This document shows, piece by piece, positions 6,628 through 17,048 of a stretch of 35,791 nt of DNA (positions within the stretch are counted from its first letter, which is position 1; each line of letters begins with the position of its first letter). This DNA is from Pseudomonadota bacterium (GTDB taxonomy: Bacteria > Pseudomonadota > Alphaproteobacteria > Rhodobacterales > Rhodobacteraceae), in NCBI GenBank assembly GCA_021813365.1, contig JAKALB010000012.1, forward strand, positions 1 through 35,791, read 5' to 3'. A program made the position numbers and the translations under genes. The notes under the pieces were generated by a model. That model worked only from the letters and a program-made list of their open reading frames with translations. It made no database searches and was not told the origin of the DNA.

Positions 6628-8019
6628 CTAATCGGCGATCGAATAGGGCAGAAGTGTCCGACGGTTCGCATCGACCGACAGCCGCCGCTCCAGGGGCGGG
6701 ACCGATCTTTGGTGGCAGTCGGCGCGGTCGCAGATGCGGCAGGAAATCCCGATCGGTTCGAACCGGCCTTTCAGGTCCAGCCCATCGGCATAGACCAGGG
6801 CGCCGGCATGGGCGATTTCACAACCCAGCCCGATGGCATAGCGGCGCACCGGAGCCAGAAAGGCGCCGCCCGGCTTGCTGACATCGCGGGCCAGGCAGAA
6901 ATAGCGCACACCGTCCGGGGTTTCGGCCAGCTGTCGCAGGAACTGGCCCGGCGTTTCGAAGGCGCGGTGGACGTTCCACAACGGGCAGGCCCCGCCGAAA
7001 CGGGCGAATTGCAGCCGGGTCGCGGAGTGGCGCTTGGTGATCGTGCCGGCCTGATCGACCCGGACGAAAAAGAACGGCACTCCCTTGGCGCCGGGGCGTT
7101 GCAGGGTGGAGAGCCGATGCGCCACCTGCTCGATCGAGGCGCCGAACAGGTCGGCCAGCCGCTCCAGATCATGCCGGGTTTCCTGGGCCGCGGTCAGGAA
7201 ACGGCGATAGGGCAACAGGGTGGCGCCGGCAAAATAGTTGGCCAGGCCGATCTTGGCGATATCCCGCGCCTCGGGCGTGGCAAAGCGGGCAAGGTCCAGC
7301 GTCGCTTCCAGCAGTTCGTTCTGGGTCAGAAGCGCCAACTGATACAAGAGCTGGAAGCGCTGGGTCGGCGCGGCTGCGCGGGCCGAAAGTGTCAGGCGTT
7401 TCGTGCCGGGATCGTATTGGCGCAGGATGGCATCCTCGCCGAAGGCCAGTTGCACCCCCCGCGCCTCCAGCGCCTCTGCCGCGGCGACCAGCATGTCCCG
7501 GCCCCTGGTGCCGCTGGCGAAATGCTCGGCCGCGCGGTCCACCGCATCGACATAGTTGTCGCAGTAATGGAAGAAGTCGCGCACCTCCTCCCAGGGCGAG
7601 GGTTTCAGGCTGGCATCCTCGCGCCCCAGCGCCTCGTCCAGAGAGGCCAGCCGTTCATGGGTCTGTCGGTAGGCGCGGTGCAGGTCCAGGAAGGCGCGGG
7701 CCAGGGCCGGGGCGTTCGAGGCCGCCAGTCGCAGGTCGGCCAGTGGCGGCGCGTGGGAAAACACCGGGTCGGCCAGCGCCTCGCGCATGTCCGACACCAG
7801 GCGTTCGCCTTCGCCGGCGTTCAGTTCCGTCACGTCCAGACCGAATTCCTGCGCCAGGGCCAGCACCACTGCGGCCGAAACCGGGCGGTGGTTGTTCTCC
7901 ATCTGGTTCAGATAGGGCAGCGAGACCTTCAGCTTGTCGGCGAAGGTCTTCTGGGTCAGGCCCAGGCGCAGGCGCAATTCGCGCAGCTTGGCCCCGGCGT
8001 ATAGTTTCTGCACCGCCAT
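6628..8019 (-). CDS. pccR: Short-chain fatty acyl-CoA regulator PccR (ScfR family)
   Basis: A 463-aa transcription factor with an N-terminal XRE-type helix-turn-helix (about residues 10-65, LRLRLGLTQKTFADKLKVS...YLNQMENN) and a long C-terminal sensor region ending in a cysteine cluster (CRICDRADC, near residues 430-440). This architecture is that of ScfR proteins, including PccR, which controls propionyl-CoA carboxylase in Rhodobacter sphaeroides, and RamB. The ATG at 8019 (MAVQKLYAGAKLRELR) has a GGGGG site. A longer start at 8058 would put two TTTGCAAA operators inside the coding region, so I reject it. The pcc genes nearby support the PccR role. The effector (propionyl- or another short acyl-CoA) is from family knowledge. 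Confidence 0.92.
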   Translation of the reverse strand: MAVQKLYAGAKLRELRLRLGLTQKTFADKLKVSLPYLNQMENNHRPVSAAVVLALAQEFGLDVTELNAGEGERLVSDMREALADPVFSHAPPLADLRLAASNAPALARAFLDLHRAYRQTHERLASLDEALGREDASLKPSPWEEVRDFFHYCDNYVDAVDRAAEHFASGTRGRDMLVAAAEALEARGVQLAFGEDAILRQYDPGTKRLTLSARAAAPTQRFQLLYQLALLTQNELLEATLDLARFATPEARDIAKIGLANYFAGATLLPYRRFLTAAQETRHDLERLADLFGASIEQVAHRLSTLQRPGAKGVPFFFVRVDQAGTITKRHSATRLQFARFGGACPLWNVHRAFETPGQFLRQLAETPDGVRYFCLARDVSKPGGAFLAPVRRYAIGLGCEIAHAGALVYADGLDLKGRFEPIGISCRICDRADCHQRSVPPLERRLSVDANRRTLLPYSIAD

Positions 8020-8030
8020 CGATGCCCCCA

Positions 8031-8059
8031 TTTGCAAAGCTGCAACGTGGCTTTGCAAA
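8031..8059. promoter_or_regulatory. Paired TTTGCAAA sites in front of pccR
   Basis: Two perfect TTTGCAAA palindromes lie at 8031-8038 and 8052-8059, 21 bp (two helical turns) apart. A degenerate TGCAA half-site (8041-8045) lies between them. They start 12 bp upstream of the pccR ATG. From memory, R. sphaeroides PccR acts at TTTGCAAA-X4-TTTGCAAA; here the spacer is 13 rather than 4. Probably an autoregulatory operator. Sites are seen directly; binding is inferred. Confidence 0.8.
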
Positions 8060-8068
8060 ACCCGTCCG

Positions 8069-9704: not shown

Positions 9705-9759
9705 TTTGCAGACGCATGTCTGCCAATATTTTGCAAATTTGCCTGTTTCTGCTTTGCAG
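9705..9759. promoter_or_regulatory. Cluster of TTTGCAAA-type half-sites in front of pccB
   Basis: One perfect TTTGCAAA (9730-9737) is followed at once by TTTGC (9738-9742). Near-matches lie on both sides: TTTGCAGA (9705), TCTGCCAA (9719) and TTTGCAGC (9753). The same octamer occurs in front of pccR, and the motif is the known type for PccR/ScfR regulators. The region lies between the divergent DUF486 gene and pccB and touches the presumed -35 area of pccB. The exact arrangement is not the published TTTGCAAA-X4-TTTGCAAA (quoted from memory). Binding by PccR is inferred. Confidence 0.75.
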
Positions 9760-9802: not shown

Positions 9803-11332
9803 ATGGACATTCTGAACGAGCTTGAGACCCGTCGCGAACGCGCCCGCCAGGGCGGCGGGGCGCGCAGGATCGAAGCGCAGCACGCCAAGGGCAAGCTGAC
9901 CGCGCGCGAGCGGATCGAACTGTTCCTGGACGAGGGCAGTTTCGAGGAATTCGACATGTTCGTGGCCCACCGCTGTGTCGACTTCGGGATGGAGCAGGAC
10001 CGGCCGTCGGGCGATGGCGTCGTCACCGGCTGGGGCACGGTGAACGGCCGCCTGGTCTATGTGTTCAGCCAGGATTTCACGGTCTTTGGCGGGTCGCTGT
10101 CGGAAACCCATGCCCAGAAGATCTGCAAGATCATGGACATGGCGATCCAGAATGGCGCGCCGGTCGTGGGGATGAACGATTCGGGCGGGGCGCGCATCCA
10201 GGAAGGCGTGGCCTCTCTGGCAGGCTATGCCGAGGTGTTCCAGCGCAACATCCTGGCCAGCGGCGTGGTGCCGCAGATTTCCCTGATCATGGGGCCCTGT
10301 GCGGGCGGGGCGGTCTATTCCCCTGCGATGACCGACTTCATCTTCATGGTGAAGGACAGTTCCTACATGTTCGTCACCGGCCCCGATGTGGTGAAGACCG
10401 TGACGAACGAGGTCGTCACCGCCGAGGAGCTGGGCGGAGCCGGCACGCACACGCGCAAGAGTTCGGTCGCCGACGGCGCCTATGAGAACGACATCGAGAT
10501 CCTTGCCGAGGCGCGGCGGCTGATCGACTTCCTGCCGCTGAACAACCGCATGAAGCCGCCGGTGCGCCCGTTCTTCGATGATCCGGCCCGGCTGGAACCC
10601 TCGCTGGACACGCTGGTGCCCGACAATCCCAACCTGCCCTATGACATGAAGGAACTGATCCTGAAGATCGCCGACGAGGGCGATTTCTTCGAGATTCAGA
10701 AGGATTACGCCGGCAACATCATCACCGGCTTCATCCGGATCGAGGGGCAGTCGGTGGGCGTCGTCGCCAACCAGCCGATGGTTCTGGCCGGGTGCCTGGA
10801 CATCGACGCCAGCCGCAAGGCCGCGCGTTTCGTGCGGTTCTGCGACGCTTTCGAAATCCCGATCCTGACGCTGGTCGATGTGCCGGGCTTCCTGCCGGGG
10901 GTGGCGCAGGAACTGGGTGGGGTCATCAAGCACGGCGCGAAACTGTTGTTCGCCTATGGCGAGGCGACGGTGCCCAAGGTCACGGTCATCACCCGCAAGG
11001 CCTATGGCGGGGCCTATGACGTGATGAGCTCGAAGCATCTGCGCGGCGATTTCAACTATGCCTGGCCCACGGCGGAAATCGCGGTGATGGGGGCCAAGGG
11101 CGCGGTGGAAATCCTGTATCGCAGCGAACTGGGCGACCGCGACAGGATCGCCGCCCGGGTCAAGGATTACGAGACGCGCTTTGCCAACCCGTTCGTCGCC
11201 GCCGAACGCGGTTTCATCGACGAGGTGATCAGCCCGCATTCGACCCGCAAGCGCGTGGCCCGTGCCTTTGCAAGCCTGCGGACCAAGAACCAGACCAACC
11301 CGTGGAAGAAGCACGACAACATTCCACTGTGA
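9803..11332 (+). CDS. pccB: Propionyl-CoA carboxylase beta subunit (carboxyltransferase)
   Basis: Carboxyltransferase subunit (509 aa; about 510 is usual) that moves CO2 from carboxybiotin to propionyl-CoA, giving methylmalonyl-CoA. Visible blocks are the N-terminal [19 protein letters not shown], the acyl-CoA oxyanion region [38 protein letters not shown], the carboxybiotin-side block [21 protein letters not shown], and the C-terminal end [11 protein letters not shown]. The ATG at 9803 has a GGAGAG site; upstream in-frame codons cross the operator region and are rejected. Partners in the complex are PccA (12811-14814) and, downstream in the pathway, the mutase. Expected control is by PccR through the TTTGCAAA sites upstream. 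Confidence 0.97.
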
Positions 11333-11344
11333 TGGGGGCGGACA

Positions 11345-11743
11345 ATGGGACAGGTGGTTCAGGTCCAGGCAGAGGGTGGCTTGGTCGAGCCGGGCTCGGA
11401 CGATCCGATCCCGGTGCCTTCGGGGCAGAAGGTGACGCTGATGGACGTGATCTGGAACATCCCCGGAGCCGAGGGTCAGGCCGTCCGTTTCCGCTTTCTG
11501 GCGCCGGCGGTCAGCAAGGAAGGTGGCACGGTCTCGGGCGCGGCCGTGCAGGCCGACATGATGGCGCTCTGCCGCGACTATGCCCTGCGGCGGGTGAACG
11601 CGACCTCCGGGCCGAAACCGGCGCAGATCATCATCTCGCTGTCGGATCGCCCGGTGCCCTTTGGCGAAGCCCATCCCGAAGCCACCCAGTATTTCGAATC
11701 CTATGCCCTGGAAGACGGGGATTGCGTCTGGAGCCTGTTCTGA
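11345..11743 (+). CDS. Uncharacterised protein of the pcc locus (DUF6497-like)
   Basis: A 132-aa soluble protein, MGQVVQVQAEGGLVEPGSDD..., with the block MDVIWNIPGAEGQAVRFRFLAP. I associate it, from memory and without certainty, with the Rhodobacterales-type DUF6497 family, which is sometimes mislabelled acetolactate synthase; it has nothing of that enzyme. No signal peptide, membrane span or catalytic motif is evident. It starts 12 bp after pccB with a GGGGGCGG-type site, so it is very likely co-transcribed with the carboxylase. A link to propionyl-CoA metabolism rests on context only. Confidence 0.72.
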   Translation: MGQVVQVQAEGGLVEPGSDDPIPVPSGQKVTLMDVIWNIPGAEGQAVRFRFLAPAVSKEGGTVSGAAVQADMMALCRDYALRRVNATSGPKPAQIIISLSDRPVPFGEAHPEATQYFESYALEDGDCVWSLF

Positions 11744-11789
11744 TGCCTCCGCGCCCGATCGCCGCCCAGGTTCCTGCAAGGAGGCAGCC

Positions 11790-12191
11790 ATGCTGAAGCA
11801 TCGTGGTTTTCCGGGCCGGATGCCCGGCACCGACTTCCAGTTCACCATCCGCCGCGCCAATGTGAAGGAAGGCGCCGCCAGGATCTTCCGCCGCGAGCGG
11901 TTCAAGGACCGCAAGGCCATCGACCGTGCCGCCGACACCGCCTTCATGGCGGCGCTGTGGGCGCAGTTCGGCGAGGAACCCTTCGAGCGCGGCAACCTGG
12001 ACGCCGGACGCCTGTCCTGGCTGTTCGGGCGCGAGGTCGTGCCGGCCGAGGATCCGTTCGATCCGACCTCTTACGAGGCGTTGCTGAAGATCGACGTGAA
12101 GCGGGCCGCGGTATCCTTTCCAACGGTTTTCGCGCCAGAGGCGGAACCGGTGGATTTCGGCGACTGGGATGACGAGGACGACGGGGAATGA
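11790..12191 (+). CDS. Hypothetical protein with acidic tail, pcc locus
   Basis: A 133-aa protein I do not recognise. It begins MLKHRGFPGRMPGTDFQFTI, is basic in its first half (RRANVKEGAARIFRRERFKDRK) and ends in a strongly acidic tail (DFGDWDDEDDGE). There is no signal peptide or membrane span. The ATG at 11790 has a near-perfect AAGGAGG site, much stronger than its neighbours', which suggests high translation. It follows the DUF6497-like gene by 46 bp and precedes a terminator-like hairpin at 12359, so pccB and the two small genes form one likely transcript. A partner or assembly role for the carboxylase is possible but unproven. Confidence 0.8.
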   Translation: MLKHRGFPGRMPGTDFQFTIRRANVKEGAARIFRRERFKDRKAIDRAADTAFMAALWAQFGEEPFERGNLDAGRLSWLFGREVVPAEDPFDPTSYEALLKIDVKRAAVSFPTVFAPEAEPVDFGDWDDEDDGE

Positions 12192-12358
12192 GCCGATTTC
12201 CGCGCAGGCTCGTGTCTCTTGTGCAAGTTCTGGCTGAATGCCCGACGGGCCGCGAGACCGGCTTTGCACCTGCGGCCGGTTTGGCGCATGATCGTGCCAG
12301 GGCCTTGGATCCCCGGTCCATCGCCCGGTTCTGGCTTGACTGTTACCCTTCCCGACTT

Positions 12359-12396
12359 GGGCAGCGCGGGCTGCGAACCGCCCCGCTGCCCGTTTT
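12359..12396 (+). terminator. Likely terminator of the pccB transcript
   Basis: Arms GGGCAGCG (12359-12366) and CGCTGCCC (12384-12391) pair perfectly. Two more G-C pairs form inside after a C-C mismatch, and GTTTTC follows. The T-run is only four long, so termination may be partial. It stands 168 bp after the stop of the 133-aa gene. Confidence 0.6.
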
Positions 12397-12436
12397 CGCG
12401 CGTCGGCGAGCTGTCGCCAACCGGCCGAATTCGGCC

Positions 12437-12464
12437 TTCAACATTTCGAGATTTCCGCTAGACT
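12437..12464 (+). promoter_or_regulatory. Possible promoter of the small lipoprotein gene
   Basis: TTCAAC (12437-12442), a 16-base spacer and TAGACT (12459-12464; four of six to the -10 consensus) stand in the most AT-rich part of this gap. The expected start is near 12471, giving a leader of about 30 bases before the ATG at 12502. Support is from pattern and position only. Confidence 0.45.
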
Positions 12465-12501
12465 CGTGGCACATAACAACCCTGCACAGAGGCAGTCACA
12501 C

Positions 12502-12708
12502 ATGCGTAAATCCATTCTGGTTCTCTCTCTTGTCGGCATTACCGTTCTGGCCGGCTGCATGCGCAACGGCATCAATGCCAACTGCACGGCGCTTGGCATG
12601 GCCGGTGGCGCAGCCCTTGGCGCGGCCACGAACAACGATCTCGCGCAATCGGCCATCGCAGGCGGTATCCTGGGCGCTGTCGCGGGCGACACGGGCGCCT
12701 GCAACTGA
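12502..12708 (+). CDS. Small glycine-zipper lipoprotein
   Basis: A 68-aa precursor. A lipoprotein signal (MRKSILVLSLVGITVLAGC) has the lipobox LAGC with lipidated Cys19, leaving a mature chain of 50 residues rich in Gly and Ala (GMAGGAALGAAT, AGGILGAVAGDTGAC) like a glycine-zipper membrane-inserting segment. Cys31 and the near-terminal Cys could form a disulphide in the periplasm. The start at 12502 has a GAGG site. It has its own likely promoter, and a strong terminator follows 41 bp after the stop, so it looks like a single-gene unit set inside the pcc cluster. The function is unknown. Confidence 0.85.
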   Translation: MRKSILVLSLVGITVLAGCMRNGINANCTALGMAGGAALGAATNNDLAQSAIAGGILGAVAGDTGACN

Positions 12709-12749
12709 CCCGACCCGCCGCGCCAGTTGCGGCGCAGCGTCGATCCTTG

Positions 12750-12790
12750 GGACCATCGGGGCACCGGCCCCGGTGGTCCTTTTCCTTTCT
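12750..12790 (+). terminator. Strong intrinsic terminator/attenuator just before pccA
   Basis: Thirteen-base arms at 12750-12762 (starting GGACCA) and 12767-12779 (ending TGGTCC) pair fully, with one G-U wobble, around an ACCG tetraloop. TTTTCCTTTCT follows. This is the strongest terminator in the window. It ends only 20 bases before the pccA start codon, leaving no room for an ordinary promoter after it. It may serve the lipoprotein gene and at the same time attenuate read-through into pccA. Confidence 0.85.
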
Positions 12791-12810
12791 CCGTCCTCAA
12801 GGCCCGCCTG

Positions 12811-14814
12811 ATGTTTGACAAGATCCTGATCGCCAACCGAGGTGAAATCGCCTGCCGGGTCATCAAGACCGCCCGCAAGATGGGCATCAAGACGGTGGCG
12901 GTCTATTCCGACGCCGACTGCAACGCGCTGCATGTGGCCATGGCGGACGAGGCGATCCACATCGGCCCATCGCCTGCCGCGCAAAGCTACATCGTGATCG
13001 ACAGGATCATGGCGGCTGTCCGCGACTCTGGCGCTCAGGCGGTGCATCCGGGTTACGGCTTCCTGTCGGAAAACCGCAACTTCGCAGCGGCCCTTGAGGC
13101 GGCCGGCGTGGTGTTCATCGGCCCGCCCAGCACCGCGATCGAGGCCATGGGCGACAAGATCACCTCGAAGAAGATCGCCCAGGATGCCGGCGTGTCGACG
13201 GTGCCGGGCCATATGGGCCTGATCGGGGATGCCGACCAGGCGGTGACGATTTCCCGCCGGATCGGCTATCCGGTGATGATCAAGGCCAGCGCCGGCGGTG
13301 GCGGCAAGGGCATGCGGATCGCCTGGACCGACGATGAGGTGCGCGAAGGCTTCCAGTCGTCCAGGAACGAGGCGGCTGCCAGCTTTGGCGACGACCGGAT
13401 TTTCATCGAGAAGTTCGTGACCCAGCCCCGCCACATCGAGATTCAGGTCCTGGCCGACAGGCATGGCAATTGCGTCTACCTGAATGAACGCGAATGCTCC
13501 ATCCAGCGGCGGAACCAGAAGGTGATCGAAGAGGCCCCCTCGCCCTTCCTGGATGCCGCAACGCGGCAGGCGATGGGCGAACAGGCCTGCGCGCTGGCGC
13601 GCGCCGTAGGCTATGTGAGCGCCGGCACGGTAGAGTTCATCGTCGATGGCAACCGGAACTTCTATTTTCTGGAAATGAACACCCGGTTGCAGGTAGAGCA
13701 TCCGGTCACCGAACTGATCACCGGCATCGATCTGGTGGAGCAGATGATCCGGGTCGCTGCCGGCCAGGCCTTGCCATTCCGGCAGGACTACATCCGCATC
13801 CATGGCTGGGCCATGGAAAGCCGGCTCTATGCCGAGGATCCCTATCGCAGGTTCCTGCCCTCGACCGGCCGGCTGACCCGTTACCGTCCGCCGGTGGAAG
13901 GCCAGACCGACCGCGGCGGCATCGTGCGCAACGACACCGGCGTGTTCGAGGGCGGCGAGATCAGCATGTTCTACGACCCGATGATCGCCAAGCTCTGCAC
14001 CTGGGGTCCGACCCGGGATGCGGCGATCGAGGAAATGCGCCTGGCGCTGGACACGTTCGAGGTGGAAGGCATCGGCCACAACCTGCCCTTCGTGGCGGCG
14101 GTGATGGACCATCCCCGCTTCGTCGCCGGCGACATCACGACCGCCTTCATCGCCGAGGAATATCCCGACGGCTTCAAGGGCGCCACCCTGCCCGAGGCCG
14201 AACTGCGCCGCGTGGCGGCGGCGGCGGCGGCGATGAACCGTGTCAGCGAAATCCGCATCAGCCGGATTTCCGGCACGATGGACAACCACAGCCGCAAGGT
14301 CGGCAACGACTGGGTGGTCAGCCTGGACGGCCATGCCTATGCGGTGACCGTCTCGGCCGACCCGACCGGCTCCACCGTCAGCTTCGCGGATGGCACGGCG
14401 ATGCGGGTGAAATCCGACTGGAAGCCCGGCCAGCCCCTCGCCCGGCTGAGCGTCGACGGTGCGCCCCTGGTCATCAAGGTGGACCATGTGCCAATGGGCT
14501 ACCGGATGCGGCTGCGCGGTGCGGACCTGCGCGTCTTTGTGCGCACGCCCCGGGCCGCGCAACTGGCCACGCTGATGCTCGAGAAGGCCCCGCCCGACAC
14601 GTCGAAATACCTGCTGTGCCCGATGCCGGGCCTGCTGGTGAGACTGGCCGTCAGCGAGGGCGACGAGGTGCAGGAGGGCCAGACCCTGGCCACCGTCGAG
14701 GCGATGAAGATGGAAAACAACCTCAAGGCCGAAAAGTCGGGTGTGGTCAGAAAGCTCTGCGCCGCCGCCGGGTCCAGCCTGAAGGTGGACGACGTGATCC
14801 TGGAATTCGAGTGA
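12811..14814 (+). CDS. pccA: Propionyl-CoA carboxylase alpha subunit (biotin carboxylase/BCCP)
   Basis: Biotin-containing subunit (667 aa) that carboxylates its own biotin with ATP and bicarbonate. In order: biotin carboxylase N-domain ([18 protein letters not shown]), ATP-grasp domain with the glycine-rich loop [12 protein letters not shown] (about 160-172) and [16 protein letters not shown] (about 288-303), biotin carboxylase C-domain, a PCC-type BT linker (about 460-570), and the C-terminal biotinyl domain with AMKM and the biotin-accepting Lys633. The ATG at 12811 is fixed by homology of the N-terminus; the ribosome site (AAGG) is modest and lies just after the terminator T-run. It works with PccB. 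How its mRNA is started is unclear (see the terminator). Confidence 0.97.
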
Positions 14815-14897: not shown

Positions 14898-17048
14898 ATG
14901 AGTGATCTTCCCGCCTCGACCGACGCCCGCATGCAGGCCTGGACTGCGCTCGCCACCCGGGAACTGAAGGGCAGGTCGCCCGACAGTCTGATCTGGGATA
15001 CGCTGGAAGGCATCCGGGTCAAGCCGCTCTACACCGCCGCCGATACGGTCGGGCTGGCGCATATGGGCGGTTTGCCCGGCATCGCCCCCTTCACCCGCGG
15101 CGTGCGGGCCACGATGTATGCCGGCCGACCCTGGACGATCCGGCAATATGCAGGTTTTTCCACCGCCGAGGCATCCAACGCCTTCTATCGCGCCAATCTG
15201 GCCGCCGGCCAGCAGGGCGTGTCCGTGGCCTTCGACCTGGCCACCCATCGCGGCTATGACAGCGATCACCCGCGCGTGCTGGGCGATGTCGGCAAGGCGG
15301 GTGTGGCCATCGACAGTGTCGAGGACATGAAGATCCTTTTCGACGGAATTCCGCTCGACAAGGTCTCGGTCTCGATGACGATGAACGGCGCGGTGATCCC
15401 GATCCTGGCGGATTTCATCGTGGCTGGCGAAGAGCAGGGCGTGCCGCGGGCGGCTCTTTCGGGCACGATCCAGAACGACATCCTGAAAGAGTTCATGGTG
15501 CGCAACACCTATATCTACCCGCCAGAACCCAGCATGAGGATCGTCGCCGACATCATCGAATACACCGCAAGGGAGATGCCGAAGTTCAACTCGATCTCGA
15601 TTTCCGGCTATCACATGCAGGAAGCGGGCGCGAATCTGGTGCAGGAGCTGGCCTTCACCCTGGCGGATGGGCGCGAATATGTCCGGGCCGCCATCGCGCG
15701 CGGGATGGATGTCGACGCATTCGCCGGACGGCTGAGCTTCTTCTTCGCCATCGGCATGAATTTCTTCATGGAAGCGGCCAAGTTGCGGGCGGCGCGACTG
15801 TTGTGGCACCGGATCATGTCGGAGTTCGGCGCGAAGAAGGCCGAGAGCCTGATGCTGCGGACGCATTGCCAGACCAGCGGCGTGTCTTTGCAGGAACAGG
15901 ATCCCTACAACAATGTCATCCGCACCGCCTACGAGGCGCTGGCGGCGGCGCTGGGAGGGACACAGTCGCTGCACACCAATGCCCTTGATGAGGCGATGGC
16001 GCTGCCCACCGAGTTCAGCGCCCGGATCGCGCGGAACACCCAGCTGATCCTGCAAGAGGAAACCGGCATCACCCATGTGGCCGATCCGCTGGCCGGCAGC
16101 TATTATGTCGAAAGCCTGACGGCCGAACTGGCCGAAAAGGCCTGGGCGCTGATGGAGGAAGTCGAGAGCCTGGGCGGCATGACCAGGGCCGTGGCCAGCG
16201 GCATGCCCAAGTTGCGGATCGAGGAATCGGCCGCACGGCGGCAGGCCATGATCGACCGGGGCGACGAGGTGATCGTCGGGGTGAACAAGTACAAGCCGGC
16301 CGCGCAGACCCATGTCGAGATCCTGGACATCGACAACATGGCGGTGCGCGAGGGCCAGATCGCCCGGCTGCGCGCCACCCGCGCGGCCCGGGACGAGGCC
16401 AGGACCCAGGCTGCCCTGGCCGAGGTGGAACGGCGCGCGCGCGACGGCGGCAATCTTCTGGACGCGGCGGTGGAAGCCGCCCGTGCCCGGGCAACGGTCG
16501 GGGAAATCAGCATGGCGATGGAAAAGGTCTTTGGCCGCCACCGGGCCGAGGTGAAGACGCTGGCCGGGGTCTATGGTGCGGCCTACGAGGGCGACGAGGG
16601 CTTTGCCGCGATCCAGAAGGACGTGGAAGCCTTTGCCGAGGCCGAGGGCCGCCGGCCACGGATGCTGGTGGTCAAGATGGGCCAGGATGGCCACGACCGG
16701 GGGGCCAAGGTGATCGCCACGGCCTTTGCCGACATCGGGTTTGACGTGGATGTCGGGCCCCTGTTCCAGACCCCGGAAGAGGCCGCCCAGGATGCGATCG
16801 ACAACGACGTGCATGTCGTGGGCATTTCCAGCCAGGCGGCGGGGCACAAGACCTTGGCACCCCGGCTGGTGCAGGCGTTGCGAGAAAAGGGCGCGGGGGA
16901 AATTCTGGTGATCTGTGGCGGGGTCATCCCGCAGCAGGACTATGACTTTCTGAAGGCGGCGGGGGTGAAGGCGATCTTCGGGCCGGGCACCAATATTCCG
17001 GCGGCAGCCAGGGAAATCCTGGACCTGATCCGTCTCGCCCGGCGTTGA
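14898..17048 (+). CDS. scpA: Methylmalonyl-CoA mutase (single-chain)
   Basis: Adenosylcobalamin-dependent mutase (716 aa) converting (R)-methylmalonyl-CoA to succinyl-CoA, the final step of propionyl-CoA assimilation. The N-terminal TIM-barrel domain shows [36 protein letters not shown] and [19 protein letters not shown]. The C-terminal B12-binding domain shows the base-off motif DGHDRG with H599 as cobalt ligand, [13 protein letters not shown] and a final GG-containing block ([12 protein letters not shown]). The ATG at 14898 has a GAAGGA site; the open frame extends far upstream but only as an overlap with pccA in another frame. No methylmalonyl-CoA epimerase or MeaB gene is seen beside it. 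The symbol varies in the literature (mcm, mcmA, scpA, bhbA). Confidence 0.96.

Follow-up and report, generated by a model that had tools for sequence, protein, structure and literature searches.

The stretch of DNA analyzed here (the window: 35,791 nt from a draft Rhodobacteraceae genome of 227 contigs) raises a simple question: why does a strong terminator-like element, which we call T2, stand between the genes for the two subunits of propionyl-CoA carboxylase, its stem ending 30 nt and its T-rich tail 20 nt before the start codon of pccA (12811–12813)? The preliminary description of this locus had proposed either that pccA is transcribed by regulated read-through, T2 being an attenuator that sets the PccA:PccB ratio, or that a pccA promoter overlaps the hairpin. 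We favor, with a probability of roughly 0.55, the reading that T2 ends the unit of a small lipoprotein gene (LIPO) nested in the pcc operon, and that pccA and mcm are transcribed by constitutive read-through.

The genes of the locus are, in order, a pccR-like ScfR gene, an MFS gene and a small gene, all on the minus strand, followed on the plus strand by pccB, the DUF6497 gene, HYP, LIPO, pccA and mcm (Table 1). In a tree of PccA proteins, the rows nearest to that of the window were a Tabrizicola MAG and Rhodobacter calidifons. The LIPO protein scored 16.1 bits against Pfam Gly-zipper_YMGG (PF13441), below the gathering cut-off of 28.9.

Table 1. Features of the pcc locus in the window.
Feature	Position	Strand	Remarks
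pccR-like ScfR-family regulator	6628..8058	-	PF09856 ScfRs, 4.5e-69
pccB, carboxyltransferase subunit	9803..11332	+	
DUF6497 gene, between pccB and pccA	11345..11743	+	
HYP, conserved hypothetical gene	11661..12191	+	frame open from 11661; later start likely
Putative T1 promoter, TTTGCA - 18 - CATGAT	12263..12292	+	picked by eye
T1 element, GTTACCCTTCCC; hairpin 12359-12391, tail GTTTTCGC	12342..12399	+	candidate 3' part of an sRNA and first terminator in the pccB-pccA interval
Putative LIPO promoter, TTCAAC - 16 - TAGACT	12437..12464	+	-10 starts 43 nt before LIPO ATG; positional peak across relatives
LIPO, 68-aa glycine-zipper-like lipoprotein gene, lipobox LAGC	12502..12708, stop included	+	family HMM matches in relatives
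T2 stem-loop, GC-rich, 14 pairs (10 G-C), loop of 4	12749..12780	+	scan and fold
T2 T-rich tail, TTTCCTTTCT, interrupted by C	12781..12790	+	directly after stem
pccA, biotin carboxylase / biotin carrier subunit of propionyl-CoA carboxylase	12811..14814	+	
mcm, methylmalonyl-CoA mutase	14898..17048	+	named from translation and context

T2 has both hallmarks of an intrinsic (Rho-independent) terminator, a GC-rich stem-loop and a T-rich tract directly after the stem. The hairpin and its position close to pccA are thus as first described, with the correction that the scan finds a stem of 14 rather than 13 bp. Its energy is -29.5 kcal/mol; the segment 12740–12815 has a minimum free energy of -32.8 kcal/mol (z -2.3), and 4 of 200 shuffled sequences fold equally well. 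Six terminator-like sites were found between 10000 and 16000 on both strands, where shuffles lead one to expect 3.9, and T2 has the longest stem among them: the class is common by chance, and T2 stands out within it.

For comparison with relatives, we drew on two sources: the best 80 among at least 596 pccA loci, and the genomes of the family, of which 241 of 246 contain PccA. Upstream regions from the second source were taken for 80 of the first 83 places listed besides that of the window, G021 and G082 (both too near a contig end) and G122 being left out. After four duplicates were dropped, 157 sequences including the window remained. By assigned name and identity, 134 of them belong to Rhodobacterales; the other 23 include L069, a MAG labeled Rhodobacteraceae with 62% identity. 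L064 (Rubrimonas) was counted within the 134, except in the count of PccR-type boxes before pccA (133 loci). Ruegeria, Paracoccus and Gemmobacter relatives in the set share the layout of the window. The ATG at 12811 was used as the pccA start in the comparisons. LIPO homologs were found with a family HMM in two rounds, and a T2-type site was defined as a hairpin of at most -18 kcal/mol followed by 8 bases that include at least 4 T.

The tiny lipoprotein gene of the preliminary description proved to be real: 108 of the 134 Rhodobacterales loci have a homolog no more than 350 nt upstream of pccA, as against none of the 22 other loci with at least 400 nt of upstream sequence. A hairpin with a T-tail follows LIPO in 105 of these 108 loci (all but L023, L126 and L146), as compared with 47 of 540 shuffles, which were scanned with a slightly simpler detector; its result for the real loci is an identical 105 of 108. 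Within 120 nt of pccA, a T2-type hairpin is present in 101 of the 108 LIPO loci versus 5 of the 26 LIPO-less loci (Fisher p 3.3e-14, kinship ignored). In one of these five, L121, the hairpin is preceded by a truncated lipoprotein frame, in L116 the T1 element described below occupies the place, and the hairpins of L046, L130 and L142 look incidental.

All 105 T2 stems differ in sequence, their pairing itself being required by the selection. The distance from the LIPO stop to the stem (median 43, sd 16) is steadier than that from the stem to the pccA ATG (median 54 nt, sd 35, range 21–249), and in L040, L120, L134 and L152 the terminator stays beside LIPO, 160–249 nt from pccA; both observations indicate that the hairpin belongs to LIPO. 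The comparison with related genomes that had been suggested as a check bears out the hairpin, its spacing to pccA being variable. Tandem LIPO copies precede pccA in L016, L021, L027, L036, L038, L095, L133, L143 and L161, including the three Paracoccus loci of the best-80 set. Where two copies lie near pccA (eight loci), a terminator follows the last copy within 140 nt in seven; in L133 it lies farther on, 116 nt to the stem. Five of the eight are without a terminator after the first copy.

On a tree of 62 PccA proteins (the best-80 set and the window only), the presence of LIPO needs nine changes, at least four of them forced by well-supported branches, so that LIPO was gained or lost several times; we infer that it is ancestral in the family. 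The only genome of the same genus in the draw of family genomes, G073, carries the DUF6497-HYP-T1-LIPO block on another contig (L165), and its pccA (L091) starts 8 nt after the pccB stop, which leaves no room there for a promoter of its own. Since, in addition, PccB lies within 35 nt of pccA in 10 of 20 other loci with an upstream PccB match, a plain pccB-pccA operon exists and the intervening block is separable. HYP ends 15–64 nt before pccA in seven Rhodobacterales loci that lack LIPO. Behind the displaced LIPO block of L165 (3100–3960) we also observed repeated AGGGAGGAGG units and, by eye, a convergent DUF1127-like gene on the opposite strand, an array that resembles the CcsR/CcaF1 sRNA array of Rhodobacter.

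Promoter-like sequence was scored with an E. coli-like matrix, which would miss activator-dependent or unusual promoters, at a high cut-off of 8 and a lower one of 6. In the 100 nt before LIPO, 39 of 102 loci (38%) reach the high cut-off as compared with 18% of shuffles, and 62 (61%) the lower one, as compared with 41%. In the 100 nt before pccA, none of 102 loci reach 8 (shuffles 7%) and five (5%) reach 6 (shuffles 21%); as scored by this matrix, the pccA leader is depleted of promoter-like sequence. When 150 nt are scored, 55 of 102 loci have their best -10 starting 31–50 nt ahead of the LIPO ATG. With only 60 nt, LIPO no longer exceeds shuffles (17% versus 21% at 6), which we attribute to the -35 falling outside. 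Thirteen LIPO-less loci with long intergenic stretches are at shuffle level before pccA (3 of 13, 23%; shuffles 23%). A -10 motif trained by expectation maximization settled on TTGCGC, which is not a -10, and was dropped; its scores (pccA 5.09, LIPO 5.00; shuffles 4.50 and 3.43) do not separate pccA from LIPO, contrary to the read-through reading. The earlier view of lipoprotein gene and terminator as a cassette inside the carboxylase operon holds up, given their unit-like behavior and a promoter-like sequence of their own, and the statement that a terminator before pccA would otherwise make no sense was too strong, as T2 makes sense as the 3' end of LIPO.

Regulatory boxes show an asymmetry between the two subunit genes. 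An exact TTTGCAAA, which we take from the PccR (ScfR) literature to be the PccR-type box, lies upstream of pccB in the window (9730–9737), and two more lie near the start of the pccR-like gene (8031–8060); with the MFS gene and the small gene in between, pccR and pccB are not directly divergent here. Across loci, an exact box occurs within 150 nt upstream of pccB in 42 of the 53 loci where this region is covered, and within 150 nt upstream of pccA in none of 133, eight having a box with one mismatch. Within 400 nt of pccA, three of the 133 have an exact box and 22 one with at most one mismatch. PccR control exerted from pccB, if it reaches pccA, has to pass T2.

Our preferred reading of these data is as follows. 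LIPO would constitute a one-gene transcription unit (promoter, 68-aa lipoprotein, terminator) between HYP and pccA, transcribed from the putative promoter marked in Table 1, and T2 would be its intrinsic terminator, closing most LIPO transcripts in vivo. The pccA and mcm genes appear to be without a recognizable promoter of their own. Their transcripts would then stem from polymerases that started at the LIPO promoter or at the PccR-controlled pccB promoter and, in some proportion, get past T2 (and also T1 in loci that have it), an effect of constitutive partial termination and not of a ligand-controlled attenuator. As the layout recurs across the family, pccA is probably made only by polymerase read-through of T2. 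The notion that T2 is tuned to be weak was rejected in a small comparison with 21 other terminators from L004–L052: T2 sites have on average 4.94 T in 8 bases versus 4.38, and a mean stem energy of -26.8 versus -22.5 kcal/mol. Since T2 is not weak, read-through may be low.

The foremost alternative is a separate pccA promoter that overlaps T2 or its tail and is of a type that the matrix misses, T2 simply insulating pccA from LIPO transcription. The preliminary description had excluded a normal promoter between hairpin and start codon; this stands where at most 35 nt separate stem and ATG (24 of 105 loci, among them the window). At the median of 54 nt, many loci could accommodate a short promoter, and the retention of strong terminators at the LIPO-pccA junction does look like insulation. 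Moreover, according to the accessible part of a study of C. sphaeroides, pcc insertions are only acetate-compromised and mcm and meaB insertions are acetate-negative (PMC12632250); mcm is thus not silenced by upstream insertions, and internal promoters (or read-through from the marker) fit these phenotypes at least as well as nested read-through does. Against this, the promoter overlapping the hairpin that had been offered earlier was not seen, the scores before pccA being below those of shuffles. Downstream of T2, a score of at least 6 was found in only 2 of 105 loci, and among the four loci with more than 150 nt between T2 and pccA, only L152 has a promoter-like match, at 6.0. In the window aligned with 11 near relatives, the hairpin is the sole clear block after LIPO. 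On balance, we consider a separate pccA promoter rather unlikely.

The hairpin might, alternatively, act mainly as an RNA element in a continuous transcript, protecting a 3' end after processing or setting the stability of a segment. In the puf operon of Rhodobacter, stable intercistronic hairpins between genes of one operon can set relative expression via mRNA decay; T2 is likewise a stable hairpin within an operon and could set relative expression, but differs in its T-tail and in standing behind a gene that itself has promoter-like sequence. The very stable T2 stems, in comparison with the 21 control terminators, would suit such a role. So would the strong hairpins without a T-tail that persist after LIPO in L031, L145 and the displaced copy of L165. 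A point against the nested-unit reading is that no T-tailed terminator was found 3' of LIPO where it lies more than 600 nt from pccA (L031, L145, L160 and the second, last copy in L161). Together, these cases suggest that complete T-tails are perhaps retained chiefly next to pccA. However, a T-rich tail, which stability alone does not need, accompanies the hairpin in 105 of 108 loci, far above shuffles even though at least 4 T in 8 was part of the search criterion, and we regard a role mainly in RNA stability as distinctly improbable.

Like trp-type or riboswitch-type attenuators, T2 is a terminator ahead of the gene that would be controlled; unlike them, it comes with no antiterminator signal and no Rfam match. 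In 89 of 102 loci, the spacer that separates T2 from the LIPO stop folds with E <= -8, though only slightly better than shuffled sequence (mean z -0.75; z <= -2 in 5 of 102). The competing anti-terminator that had been suspected gave no signal, pairing of the spacer with the 5' arm of T2 being no better than in shuffles (mean z -0.20; z <= -2 in 2 of 102 loci). The pccA leader after T2 folds no better than shuffles (mean z -0.24, 96 loci). Rfam gave no match at the gathering cut-off in the window, T1 and T2 included, and weak matches in 12100–12900 (the best being ftsZ-DE, 23.8 versus 72.2 bits) were taken as chance. Opening of T2 by a ligand or a leader structure at high propionyl-CoA, which would set PccA:PccB, is suggested by the position of T2 before one subunit gene and by the folding of the spacer, but is very improbable in view of these null results and of the 21 kcal/mol that the window segment loses when the 5' arm is forced open. 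The proposal that pccA is expressed by regulated read-through thus survives in one half: read-through is the most likely source of its transcripts, and the regulation is unsupported, there being neither an antiterminator signal nor, in 133 loci, an exact PccR-type box near pccA. Translation of pccA from an upstream start through the hairpin was likewise rejected, the frame being open through T2 in only 59 of 105 loci.

A second terminator-like element, T1, lies between HYP and LIPO. Its hallmarks are CGTTACCCTTCCCC, a covarying hairpin and a T-tail. Within the 1600 nt before pccA, the exact motif ACCCTTCC is present in 56 Rhodobacterales loci (of 134) and absent from all 23 others. We aligned 71 loci picked by ACCCTTCC and its variants, so that the near-invariance of the motif is partly a matter of choice; the hairpin, which lay outside this choice, has all 10 consensus pairs changed on both sides. 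A model of this alignment adds 19 loci at E <= 1e-3 (those it was built from being left out) and, in whole genomes, gives matches in 60 of 120 at E <= 1e-4 and in 92 of 120 at E <= 0.1, many matches at the looser cut-off being weak and partial. In the genome of the window, the pcc copy is the only strong match (43.4 bits), three others reaching at most 18 bits. Twelve places matched by the model were picked for inspection, and 11 of them lie beside HYP. The twelfth, L166 (G005:C1:255599), is a second match in its genome, with 33.7 bits and no pcc gene or HYP in the surrounding 4.2 kb.

Terminator-like sites between HYP and LIPO are present in 66 of 98 loci, whereas shuffles yield about 20 of 98. 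In 36 of the 71 loci, the best promoter-like -10 starts 51–60 nt before the T1 motif, with a mean score (5.96) only slightly above that of shuffles (5.36). We predict that T1 is an sRNA gene of about 105 nt, which in the window would run from roughly 12299 to 12399, and whose terminator would also stand between pccB and pccA. In the accessible passages of published sRNA work on Rhodobacter, Ruegeria and Paracoccus, we saw no match to T1. As a tentative extension of the nested-unit reading, one that is possible with the odds somewhat against it, many Rhodobacterales may have two nested, independently promoted units in series between pccB and pccA: an undescribed sRNA gene of about 105 nt with the C-rich single strand CGUUACCCUUCCCC and its own terminator, then LIPO with T2. 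The pccA and mcm genes would then be the read-through tail of the sRNA, lipoprotein and PccR promoters.

A known counterpart of such a junction is the UpsM/mraZ-dcw leader of R. sphaeroides. In the part of PMC5089854 available to us, the UpsM terminator lies 84 nt before mraZ, which has no other start site, read-through is estimated at about 1 in 100, and the terminator is described as conserved in Rhodobacteraceae. T2 resembles it as a strong intrinsic terminator that recurs shortly before an important operon in the family (within 120 nt of pccA in the 101 LIPO loci counted above), the downstream genes being, presumably also in the case of pccA, transcribed by read-through. By contrast, UpsM is a leader RNA described as an sRNA, whereas the T2 unit encodes a lipoprotein, lies inside an operon and has read-through as a prediction. 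By analogy, the precedent makes read-through into pccA plausible.

Other published data, as far as the accessible passages go, bear on the expression of the subunits. In D. shibae, PccA and PccB gave similar peptide counts in a Streptactin pull-down (PMC10890935), so that both subunits are made, by whatever mode of expression. In Ruegeria, SPO1094 (pccB) is co-transcribed with the next two genes, in a passage that stops short of pccA (PMC3305630). A description of the LIPO-T2-pccA junction or of T1 was not seen in the literature searched, which is weak evidence of novelty, most subscription papers and supplements having been outside its scope.

A nested lipoprotein unit that recurs in the family would explain a seemingly senseless terminator before the gene of a key subunit. 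Two parts of a single enzyme complex would then differ in how they are transcribed, linked solely via read-through, and induction data for pccB should accordingly not be taken as describing pccA. The pcc locus also likely harbors a new sRNA family, and, if the reading with two units in series is true, the level of the carboxylase would be tied to envelope and sRNA regulation.
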